A stretch of DNA of 64,000 bases from Serinibacter salmoneus (GTDB lineage Bacteria; Actinomycetota; Actinomycetes; Actinomycetales; Beutenbergiaceae). Shown piece after piece: positions 2,758-36,914 of this stretch. The notes below the pieces were generated by a model, which saw only the letters and a program-made list of their open reading frames with translations, made no database searches and had not been told where the DNA came from. The stretch covers positions 1,618,973 to 1,682,972 of the forward strand of contig NZ_PDJD01000001.1 of assembly GCF_002563925.1 (NCBI RefSeq), written 5' to 3'. Numbering within the stretch: the stretch's first letter is position 1; every line of letters begins with the position of its first letter. The translations under genes were made by a program, and so were the position numbers.

Positions 2758-3261
2758 ATGGAGACCGACGAGGACGCGCTGGAGGTCCCCCCAGCATCCC
2801 GCCATTGGTGGCATGGTCGCGCGCCGTGGTGGGCATGGATCGCGCTGATCTGCGCCGTCGGCCTCGTGCCGTGGATCGTCTACCTGCGCATCACGCTCCC
2901 TCGCACGTACGTGGTGGAGACCTGGGGCGCCGCGTGGGTGGGATTCGACATCGCGCTGGCCGCCCTCTTCGCTCTCACGGCGTGGGCCGCGGCCGGACGC
3001 TCGCACCGTTTCGTCATGTTCGCCACCGCCACGGGCACGATGCTGTTCGTCGACGGCTGGTTCGACACCATGCTCACCGATAACTCCGAGGACCGCGGCT
3101 CCTACCTGGCGCTGCTGTTGGAGGTGCCACTCGGCATCGCTCTCCTGATGGCGGCGGCGGGGTGGTTCCGCGAACTGCGGCGCGTTTCTGCCACCGGTCC
3201 GCATCATGCGAGAGACCCCGGACGGCTGCGCAGGGGGCGGAGCAGCCGACCGGGGTCGTGA
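2758..3261 (+). CDS. four-helix membrane protein of unknown function
   Basis: 167 residues from ATG 2758, with a CCGGAGGA ribosome site 4 bases upstream. Four hydrophobic segments are visible at about residues 24-43, 56-75, 81-97 and 113-131, separated by short polar loops. The loop after helix 2 is basic and a conserved-looking DGWFD stands near helix 3. The N-terminus is acidic and the C-terminus Arg-rich, consistent with an inner-membrane protein whose tail is cytoplasmic. It is the first chromosomal gene beyond the tRNA-Asn scar, so its promoter may have been affected by the integration event. No specific family name can be assigned. Confidence 0.75.
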
Positions 3262-33873: not shown

Positions 33874-33920
33874 CGGGAGATTCTTTCATGTGCGCGCCGA
33901 GCAGGCCCCACAGCCGGCGA

Positions 33921-33981
33921 GAGAGTCTGATGCGCGCGAGAGAGCCTCGTTCACGGACTCTCTCGTGTGAATCAGACTCTC
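33921..33981. repeat. long imperfect hairpin, family 2, copy 1
   Basis: Outer stem GAGAGTCTGAT/ATCAGACTCTC (11 bp), 5x5 internal loop, inner stem CGAGAGAG/CTCTCTCG (8 bp), 13-base loop. It lies in the 230-bp gap between dusB and the DUF559-type gene. Shares the CGAGAGAG core with copy 2. Confidence 0.85.
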
Positions 33982-34103
33982 CCACCGGGATGTCCCGTCA
34001 GCATCACGATGCGAGCTGTCCCCAACCGGCCCGCAACAGCCCTCCGCAGTCCGTGTGCACAGGTCAGCGGCGGACCGAGCGCGCCGGAGTCACGCTGTGT
34101 GCC

Positions 34104-35090
34104 ATGGAGCTCCTCGACTCATGGGCAACGCTTACCGCCCCCACCCGCGGCACGGCCATGGCACCACGTCACCTGCCCCCGGTGGTGCGCACCCGCACGA
34201 TCGGCATCCGGCGAACTCGTGAACTGCTCGCCTCGGGCGAGTACACGCAGGTACGGCGGGGAGTCATCGCCCGCTGCCGGACGTCGCCCGCCTCGGGACG
34301 CGCGAGTGACGAGGTGCTCGCGCACGCGCACGCGATCGCGGTGACCCATCCGTCCGGCGTGCTCTTCTCCCACCAGACAGCCGTGCTCCTGCTCGGCGGG
34401 TGGTTGCTGTGGCCCGCGCTACCGGTGCACGTGCGCCAGTGCACCCCGATCTCCTCGCAGTTGCGACGTGACGCCCAGCTCAGGCGGCACCTCGGGCCGG
34501 TCCAGGAGTCGGAGATCCGCGCGCACGACGACGTGTTGGTCACCTCACCCGAACTCACCCTGATCGACTGCGCCCGAACGTCACCCTTCCTCGAGGCAGT
34601 CGTCGCCGCGGACTCGCTGGCTCGGCTCGGTGCGGACCGCGAACGGGCAGCCACGATCCTCGAGGCGTGCGCAGGGGGCCGGGGCGTGGTGCAGGCCAGG
34701 CGGGTGCTCGCGACCATCGACGGTGTGCCTGAGTCACCCGGGGAGTCGGCCGTGCGCGGGATCGCGGTGGATAAGGGGCTGCCCGCTCCCCGGCCGCAGG
34801 TCCGCATCCGCACGTCGCTCGGCGTGAAGGAACTGGACCTCGGCTGGGAGGACAGGAGAGCGGGCATCGAGTTCGACGGTGCGGTGAAGTACCGGAACCT
34901 CACCGCGCAGGAGGTCACCCGGCGGATTCAGGCAGACATGGCGCGCCACGAAGCGATCACCGCGCAGGGCTGGACGGTACTGCGGGTGCGGTGGGATGAC
35001 TTCTCGGACCTTCCGGGGCTCGCCACCCGGCTCCTGCGGCTCTATCGGGACGGCGTCGCCCTCCGGCCGCCCGGGCGGGCGCGGTACTGA
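34104..35090 (+). CDS. DUF559-type protein with AbiEi-like N-terminal region
   Basis: 328 residues from ATG 34104; no good ribosome site is seen, and the frame is open further 5'. The N-terminal half (IGIRRTRELLASGEYTQVRRGVI, SGVLFSHQTAVLLLG, VTSPELTLIDCART) follows the pattern of AbiEi-like/transcriptional antitoxin relatives. The C-terminal ~100 residues carry KELDLGWEDRRAGIEFDG and a following helix then GWTVLRVRWDD, the layout of DUF559 (Vsr/PD-(D/E)xK-like) domains. Such genes are common in actinobacteria with unknown role. It is bracketed by two hairpins that share a core. Confidence 0.75.
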   Translation: MELLDSWATLTAPTRGTAMAPRHLPPVVRTRTIGIRRTRELLASGEYTQVRRGVIARCRTSPASGRASDEVLAHAHAIAVTHPSGVLFSHQTAVLLLGGWLLWPALPVHVRQCTPISSQLRRDAQLRRHLGPVQESEIRAHDDVLVTSPELTLIDCARTSPFLEAVVAADSLARLGADRERAATILEACAGGRGVVQARRVLATIDGVPESPGESAVRGIAVDKGLPAPRPQVRIRTSLGVKELDLGWEDRRAGIEFDGAVKYRNLTAQEVTRRIQADMARHEAITAQGWTVLRVRWDDFSDLPGLATRLLRLYRDGVALRPPGRARY

Positions 35091-35119
35091 ATCGGCGCCT
35101 GGATCCGGCGGGCCGCCGA

Positions 35120-35186
35120 CGAGAGAGTCTCCTTTGGGCGAGAGAGTCTCCCAACAGGACTCTCTCGCGCGAAAGAGACTCTCTCG
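35120..35186. repeat. long imperfect hairpin, family 2, copy 2
   Basis: 29-base arms (35120-35148 and 35158-35186) match with only three mismatches around a 9-base loop; the arms begin and end with CGAGAGAGTC and GACTCTCTCG. Located 29 bp after the DUF559-type gene. Confidence 0.9.
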
Positions 35187-35237
35187 GCTGAGGCACCCGG
35201 CGGGGCTGGGACGCGCGGCGGTGTGGTGATGCGGCGA

Positions 35238-35268
35238 GGGCCGCCGCACCTGAACGGTGCGGCGGCCC
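35238..35268. terminator. terminator of trigger factor
   Basis: Perfect 13-bp stem GGGCCGCCGCACC/GGTGCGGCGGCCC with loop TGAAC, between the convergent DUF559-type and tig genes. Confidence 0.85.
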
Positions 35269-35306
35269 TTGCGGACTCGCAGGTGGCCCTCGGCGGGCCC
35301 GGCCGA

Positions 35307-36914
35307 CTACTCGGCGGCGGCGGTGTCGGCAGCCTCGGCGGCCGCCTTCTTGGCCGGAGCCTTCTTCGCAGACGGCTTCTCGGCGCCCTCAGCGGCCGGC
35401 TCCTCAGCGGCGTCAGCAGCGGCCGCCTTCTTGGCCGGAGCCTTCTTCGCGGCCGGCTTCTTGGCCGGAGCCTTCTTGGCGGCCGGCTTTTCGGCAGGCG
35501 CTTCCTCGGCGGGCGCCTCCTCAGCAACCGCCTCGGTCTCGACGGTCTCGACGTCGACCTCCACGGTCTCCGTCTCGCCAGCGAGCTCCTCGGCCTGGAC
35601 GGCGGCGGCGCCGGCGGCCTGCGCGGCACGCTCGGCGTCGAGCTCGTCGGAGCCGATGAACGGCGTGAGGTCCACGGTCTCACCGGCGCCGTCGACCACG
35701 GTCACCTGACGCAGCGCGAGCGCGAGGGACTTGTTCCGCGCGATCTCACCCACGAACACCGGGATCTGGCCGGTCTTGTCGGCGTTCTGCACGAACTCGT
35801 TCGGGTCGACCTTGTACTGCTGCGCGGTGCGCACCAGGAAGTCGATGAGCTCCTGCTGGGAGACCTGCACGGAGAGCTGCTCGGCGAGCACGTCCAGCAG
35901 CAGCTGGCGGCGCAGCGCAGTCGTGGCCTCGCCGCGCACCTCCTCGCGGTGCTCGTCGTCCTCGAGGCGGTTCTCGCTCTCGAGGTGGCGGTGGATCTCC
36001 GCCTCGACGACGCCCTTGGGCACCTCGAACTCGACGGCGGACTCGAGGGCCTCGAGGAGCTGGTCGCGGGCCTCGACGGCCTGCTCGTTGACCTTGCCGC
36101 TCGCGGCCTGCGTGCGTAGGTCGGCCAGGAGCTCCTCCAGCGTGTCGAACTCGCTGGCGAGTTGGGCGAAGTCGTCGTCCAGCTCGGGCAGTTCCTGCTC
36201 CTTCACCGCGGAGACGGTGACGGAGACCTCGGCGCTCTCGCCCGCGTGCTCGCCGCCGGCGAGCTCGGAGGAGAACGTGGCACTCTCACCGGCGGACAGG
36301 CCGGTCACGGCCTCGTCCAGGCCGGGCAGCATGGTGCCGGAACCGATCTGGTAGGAGACGCCGGAGACCGAGTCGATCTCCTCGCCGTCGATCGTGGCGG
36401 TCATGTCGATGGTGAGGAAGTCACCGTCGGCGGCGGCGCGGTCCACGCCCTGCAGGGTGCCGAAGCGCTGGCGCAGCACCTCCACGCGCTCGTCGATCTC
36501 CTCGTCGGAGACCTCGAGGGAGGACACGGTCACGGTGAGGTCGCTCAGCGTGGGCAGCTCGAACTCGGGGCGCACGTCCACCTCGGCGGTGAAGATCAGG
36601 TCGCCGCTCTTGTCCACGGGGACCTGGGTGACCTCGACCTCGGGCTGCGCGAGCACCGCGATCTCGTTCTCGTTCACGGCCTCGCGGTAGAAGCCGGGCA
36701 GCGCGTCGTTCACGGCGTGCTCCAGCACGGCACCGAAGCCGATGCGCTGGTCGATGATGCGGGGCGGGACCTTGCCCTTGCGGAAACCGGGCACGGACAC
36801 GTCCTGAGCGATGTGCTTGTAGGCGTGCTCGATGCTCGGCGTCAGCTCCTCGTAGGACACCTCCACGGTCAGCTTGACGCGAGTCGGCTCAAGGGTCTCG
36901 ACGGCACTCTTCAC
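35307..36914 (-). CDS. tig: trigger factor with a Lys/Ala-rich C-terminal tail
   Basis: Ribosome-bound chaperone and prolyl isomerase. 535 residues, about 100 longer than E. coli. The N-terminal ribosome-binding domain has the signature [12 protein letters not shown] at ~44; the PPIase (FKBP) domain lies at ~150-245 and the C-terminal chaperone arms to ~420. The last ~115 residues are low-complexity: an acidic Glu/Val stretch, then [19 protein letters not shown]-type repeats and a final DTAAAE. This tail resembles those of actinobacterial HU or histone H1-like proteins. The start is GTG at 36914, opposite no ribosome site. clpP, a common neighbour, is not in view. Confidence 0.95.

Follow-up and report, generated by a model that had tools for sequence, protein, structure and literature searches.

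What is a DUF559/MTES_1575-type gene doing between dusB and tig, enclosed by two long matching palindromes? This question arises in the window, the whole 64-kb stretch of DNA that was analyzed, where a sequence-only reading had proposed a small defense or mobile cassette or, alternatively, transcription barriers. Herein, we propose that the locus is probably a self-contained REPtron-like unit, whose nuclease would recognize and spread its own palindromes. It is called REPtron-like because RAYT genes show the same hallmarks with REPs.

The two hairpins with a common core that the sequence-only reading had described were real, and their full extents were refined by alignment, folding, and direct reading to 33918-33984 (left, w1) and 35120-35186 (right, w2), neither with an assigned strand. 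They are direct copies, 75% alike over 69 nt in the alignment, of one 68-bp nested palindrome. The word CGAGAGAGTC occurs twice per arm with a 19-bp period and four times in a complete element, giving the architecture W-n9-W-loop-W'-n9-W'. Word copies start at 33918, 33937, 33956 (inverted), and 33975 (inverted, decayed) in w1 and at 35120, 35139, 35158 (inverted), and 35177 (inverted) in w2. The core common to w1 and w2, which recurs four times in each, is larger than CGAGAGAG; this 8-mer occurs 66 times in the genome compared with 41 for its reversed control and is too short to inform alone. Direct reading of w2 gave 30 pairable positions per arm, including two mismatches and two G-T. Folding energies were –49.7 kcal/mol for w1 (z –7.7 against shuffles) and –51.4 kcal/mol for w2 (z –7.4), and no shuffle folded as well as either. 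As had been claimed, nothing comparable lies elsewhere in the window, with w1 and w2 the sole palindromes in the 64 kb that pair 21 or more of 26 arm positions. No T-run follows w1 or w2 on either strand by direct reading, and neither qualifies as an intrinsic terminator, that is, a GC-rich hairpin followed by a T-run. The Rfam search for an identity of the hairpins returned chance matches alone (mir-629, 30 bits against a cut-off of 72). A separate hairpin with 17-nt arms lies on the 3' side of tig at 35234-35272, past the tig stop codon, and is likely the terminator of tig, not a member of the palindrome family. The tig gene itself carries a long C-terminal Ala/Lys-rich repetitive tail (35307-35560), which is uncommon for tig and resembles histone in a weak Pfam match (HC2).

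The bracketed gene (34104-35090, plus strand) encodes 328 amino acids. Its open frame reaches upstream to 33888, and the start codon at 34104 was picked by homology and the position of the palindrome. Profiles and the structural model define an N-terminal AbiEi/Rv2827c-like domain, predicted to bind DNA (residues 25-206, 34176-34721, plus strand), while the alignment and the model define a C-terminal Vsr/EDxHD-type nuclease domain (residues 211-319, 34734-35060, plus strand). Pfam scores were below the gathering cut-off (DUF559, PF04480, and MTES_1575, PF18741: 24.9 bits against 38.2 and 13.4 against 20.6), and AbiEi profile matches, including those of PADLOC, were weak. An AlphaFold2 model was built from 21 homologs with a mean pLDDT of 86.8. 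In structure comparisons of this model, residues 25-206 matched the AbiEi antitoxin (6y8q) with Z 10.6 and Rv2827c (1zel) with Z 8.6, and residues 211-319 matched Vsr (1vsr) with Z 7.2 and, across all 97 of 97 residues, the I-Bth0305I catalytic domain (3r3p) with Z 9.2. The AbiEi and Vsr folds together span the whole model. The predicted structures of both domains and the profile matches thus bear out the AbiEi-like N-terminus and nuclease-like C-terminus suggested earlier, and the modeled fold supports membership in the Vsr superfamily despite the subthreshold Pfam scores. E214, D245, E256, K262, and Y263 were invariant in the homolog alignment, and E256-x-D-G-A-V-K-Y is conserved across the family. 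The nuclease is probably active because the catalytic residues are invariant. Pfam matches of the protein were to MTES_1575/DUF559 and AbiEi, with Y1_Tnp absent, and NCBIfam gave no match. Searching PDB sequences with the family profile returned chance matches alone, such as ribosomal protein S20. A paralog in the window genome (46171-47061) is 40% identical; it has a strong palindrome on one side alone, with a different word, CCCGTGCCTCCCGCAGCGAG (L036 2570-2626, genome 47240-47296).

Hairpins flanking DUF559 genes in related genomes, which the sequence-only reading had named as a check on its cassette, were found. Surroundings of homologs from other actinobacteria provided 80 loci. With at least 23 of 26 positions paired, 26 palindromes lay within 600 nt of DUF559 homologs (0.276 per kb), compared with 2 in the rest of the same 80 loci (0.0041 per kb), a density about 67 times lower than near the gene. 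At a looser cut, 30 of the 80 loci had a palindrome on both sides. In a wider set, both sides were occupied in 43 of 127 DUF559 loci versus 2 of 27 trigger-factor loci used as a control (Fisher p 0.005), and at the next cut 66 DUF559 loci versus 4 trigger-factor loci had a palindrome on at least one side (p 0.0005). DUF559 homologs without palindromes on both sides also exist at the thresholds used. At one locus (L061), the flanking palindromes were identical over 73 nt. The association reaches another class, Coriobacteriia. There, in Collinsella aerofaciens (L363 1208-2754, on a 900-kb record labeled plasmid 6), a DUF559 homolog sits amid five palindromes, three upstream and two downstream, all with the word GATCTGTAAC. 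Other DUF559 subfamilies (L279, L281, L284, and L288) have long flanking palindromes without the 19-20-bp internal repeat, and palindrome architecture seems to vary between subfamilies.

Each gene has its private word. Between the palindromes on the two sides of a locus, the longest common run had a median of 14 nt, compared with 6 nt between loci, and at least 10 nt were common in 92% of comparisons within a locus versus 5% between loci. The word differs between genes, and even paralogs of the same genome have different words. Palindrome similarity rose with protein similarity, from 0.42 for distant protein pairs to 0.55 at a normalized score of 0.5-0.7 and 0.78 above 0.7. Among protein pairs at least 35% identical, rho was 0.41 with a permutation maximum of 0.19, and in these pairs the N-terminal domain was a somewhat stronger predictor of the word (0.43) than the nuclease domain (0.27). 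A Mantel test over all 63 loci gave a rho of 0.11 alone against a permutation maximum of 0.18; only pairs with 35% identity or more carry the word-protein signal.

The 3.27-Mb chromosome of the window genome, a single contig, contains five copies of the element, two of which bracket the DUF559-type gene. The further copies at 426931-426998, 1099704-1099771, and 3048521-3048588 had E-values of 1e-15 to 3e-13, with the next match at 0.1, and none of the three brackets a DUF559 gene. By our own reading of the open reading frames, the copy at 1099704 lies 3' of an rplT-like frame and that at 426931 near the end of a 505-codon frame. Because the window copies have diverged (75% alike), the family in this genome is probably old and nearly quiet. 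Hairpins at unrelated loci without a DUF559 gene had been named beforehand as evidence against a cassette, and three of the five copies are literally of this kind. Dispersed copies of this sort are expected of a REPIN-like family. Hairpins without DUF559 do not separate such a family from chance; a search for cognate genes does.

A covariance model built solely from the five window-genome copies matched strongly in other genera, where the words were different. Gene searches of the matched genomes revealed a DUF559 gene bracketed by the exact dispersed word in G145 (CGAGACAGACC, with at least nine dispersed sites), G013 (CGAGAGCGACCC), G052 (CGAGGTAGTCGG), and G140 (CCGAGAGTCCC). In G140, the sole model match was the flanking copy, so this genome documents the unit and not its dispersal. 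The cognate-gene search was a prediction that might have failed, and it held in four genomes. No cognate DUF559 gene was detected for the dispersed word of G088 or for the genome-wide word families of G017 (GGAAGGACC) and G008 (GAGGGCGATCC, one of two families there). The G088 palindromes (L184, L185, and L186) carry words around CGAGAGAGCAT(C), and this family has possibly lost its enzyme. Families without a cognate could reflect enzyme loss or action in trans, and another enzyme could also be responsible. G013 additionally has a small second family (L319, L321, and L324), in which the outer word GAGGTAGACCC differs from the inner word GACACCGACCC, a departure from the usual four-fold repeat. 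An extra half-element, resembling a partial duplication, lies directly upstream of a complete palindrome near 3074 of the G013 locus L182.

Presence and absence of the unit was observed within one genus. At one intergenic site, G013 carries palindrome, gene, and palindrome, G017 is empty with about 54 nt alone, and G008 has a unit in which the gene is reversed and the word differs. The right end of the G008 unit abuts conserved sequence. Intergenic sequence beside the unit has diverged too far for exact junctions, and with them any target-site duplication, to be read. This empty site in one congener, together with the same unit in relatives, upholds the mobile part of the earlier cassette proposal. 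In relatives of the window genome, dusB does not adjoin tig, and DUF559 was absent there in 28 of 28; the gene order has changed, so this absence is uninformative. As relatives do not preserve dusB-tig, no exact empty site is demonstrable for the window copy. At the leuA-recO site (names by our own reading), a 68-69-bp palindrome is present in all three congeneric species with three different words. A second model located about 18, 9, and 23 sites in the respective genomes, where words specific to the genome predominated, and found additional shared sites. These patterns reflect either concerted turnover of words at old sites or repeated targeting of the same sites.

The REPtron-like reading can be cast as a mechanism. 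The AbiEi-like N-terminal domain would most likely bind the repeated word, and the four words of a palindrome could accommodate several subunits at a single site. The Vsr-like C-terminal domain may then cut or nick the palindrome, or its cruciform or hairpin form, and the break could be repaired by host recombination that copies in a palindrome or the entire unit. A bolder version, advanced only tentatively, holds that these units are an undescribed class of bacterial mobile DNA found widely across Actinomycetota, whose AbiEi-Vsr nuclease targets dispersed palindromes by homing and overwrites them. Palindromes already resident at orthologous sites would take on the word of whichever enzyme is current, and words would thereby turn over in concert across the genome.

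Gene calls by a home-made program placed 61 of 63 dispersed copies 3' of at least one neighbor and 2 between divergent genes; for comparison, divergent gene pairs flank 14 of the 34 intergenic gaps in the window. If the palindromes were operators of the protein and the dispersed copies the regulatory sites of a small regulon, with nothing moving, copies would be expected between divergent genes, where almost none occur. A copy downstream of the gene is likewise awkward for an operator, as are the absence of the whole unit from one congener and the nuclease domain, which a regulatory role leaves unexplained. Such a regulon would suit the AbiEi-like N-terminal fold, AbiEi-type antitoxins being known as autoregulating repressors, and the covariation of word and protein. 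We regard this alternative as unlikely, yet the best of those that compete with the REPtron-like unit.

The dispersed copies mostly lie 10-50 nt past stop codons, often between convergent genes. This placement is usual for tolerated repeats, and a terminator side effect fits it too. Together with the strong folding as RNA, it gives some ground for viewing the palindromes as bidirectional transcription terminators that insulate genes, with DUF559 a bystander. The symmetry of the stems points elsewhere. Among 12 elements from congener genomes, 25 of 32 positions changed on both sides, and slid controls were 32-44% paired. Two-sided changes occupied 63 cells compared with 21 in shuffles (none of 500 shuffles as high) and one-sided changes 8 cells, in a test that is inflated by related sequences and by a structure drawn on the same sequences. 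Very few covarying pairs were G-U. In an RNA hairpin, numerous G-U steps would be tolerated. Because G-U pairs are nearly missing from the covarying stems, the symmetry appears to be maintained in double-stranded DNA. Termination also requires neither a private word per neighboring gene nor a four-fold repeat, the window copies have no T-run, tig has its own terminator-like hairpin, and the association with DUF559 is far above background. The private words and the scarcity of G-U pairs speak firmly against transcription barriers, the other role offered by the sequence-only reading, as the main function, and we consider the terminator explanation quite unlikely.

The defense part of the earlier cassette proposal fared worse. 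It would pair an AbiEi antitoxin with a nuclease effector, leaving the palindromes as recombination ends alone, and could draw on the weak AbiEi profile matches and on the presence or absence of the unit at one site. No toxin partner gene, defense neighbors, or island was in view around the gene. Searches of plasmid and phage collections gave two and three weak matches, one of them the Coriobacteriia record labeled as a plasmid, and the family is nearly absent from these records. Many paralogs per genome, each with its own palindrome, also argue against a defense or toxin-antitoxin cassette, which we judge very improbable. Least probable of all is that another recombinase mobilizes the palindromes and DUF559 only uses them as insertion sites, in the manner of some IS elements with REPs: some palindrome families indeed have no detected cognate DUF559, but many unrelated words would be expected, whereas within a genome the bracketed gene and the word correspond, and the word follows protein similarity.

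If the REPtron-like reading is true, these units would represent a second, unrelated enzymatic solution to the same problem as RAYT and would assign a function to a large "DUF559/AbiEi" protein group that has numerous paralogs in each actinobacterial genome. The dozens of enzyme-site pairs available in nature would make the recognition rules of a Vsr-like nuclease learnable, and the spreading of such repeats would become directly testable. The literature searched contained no work joining DUF559, MTES_1575, or AbiEi/Vsr proteins with palindromes, and no dedicated partners of dispersed bacterial palindromes other than RAYT transposases; this search was incomplete and is weak evidence of novelty. 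The system is not described in the literature searched, and we make no wider claim.

Known systems share parts of this arrangement. The N-terminal fold is that of AbiEi antitoxins (type IV toxin-antitoxin, 6y8q) and Rv2827c (1zel). Unlike AbiE toxin-antitoxin systems, the locus has no adjoining AbiEii nucleotidyltransferase toxin gene, and a nuclease domain is fused instead. CGTC-tagged REPs are dispersed palindromes reported to have no dedicated transposase (PMC3733652); they resemble our elements in dispersal and differ in tag and phyla. Some REP families have also been described without a dedicated enzyme (PMC3733652). EDxHD homing endonucleases such as I-Bth0305I, which dimerizes on a target of nearly 60 bp (PMC3943268), share the Vsr-like catalytic domain with acidic active-site residues and the presence or absence of the gene at a site. 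A homing gene, however, interrupts its target and destroys the site, whereas here complete palindromes stand on both sides and many more copies of the site exist elsewhere. The closest parallel is the REP/REPIN and RAYT system, or REPtrons (PMC2817692, PMC3116915, PMC3733652). There, rayt genes are always flanked by two REPs with which they coevolve, and cognate REPs are abundant where a rayt is present (PMC2817692). Our units differ in the enzyme, an AbiEi-like domain joined to a Vsr-like nuclease in place of a Y1/HUH transposase of the IS200/IS605 family. They also differ in the elements, which are nested four-word palindromes of about 68 bp that have no GTAG tag and mostly end in CGAG/CTCG on both sides, and in copy number, from 5 to about 20 compared with over 100 for REPs. 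As in REPtrons, an enzyme gene is flanked by palindromes, copies are dispersed between genes, the word is private to the enzyme and covaries with it, several enzyme-word pairs occur per genome, and, with the exception of three word families, cognate repeats are dispersed in the same genome.
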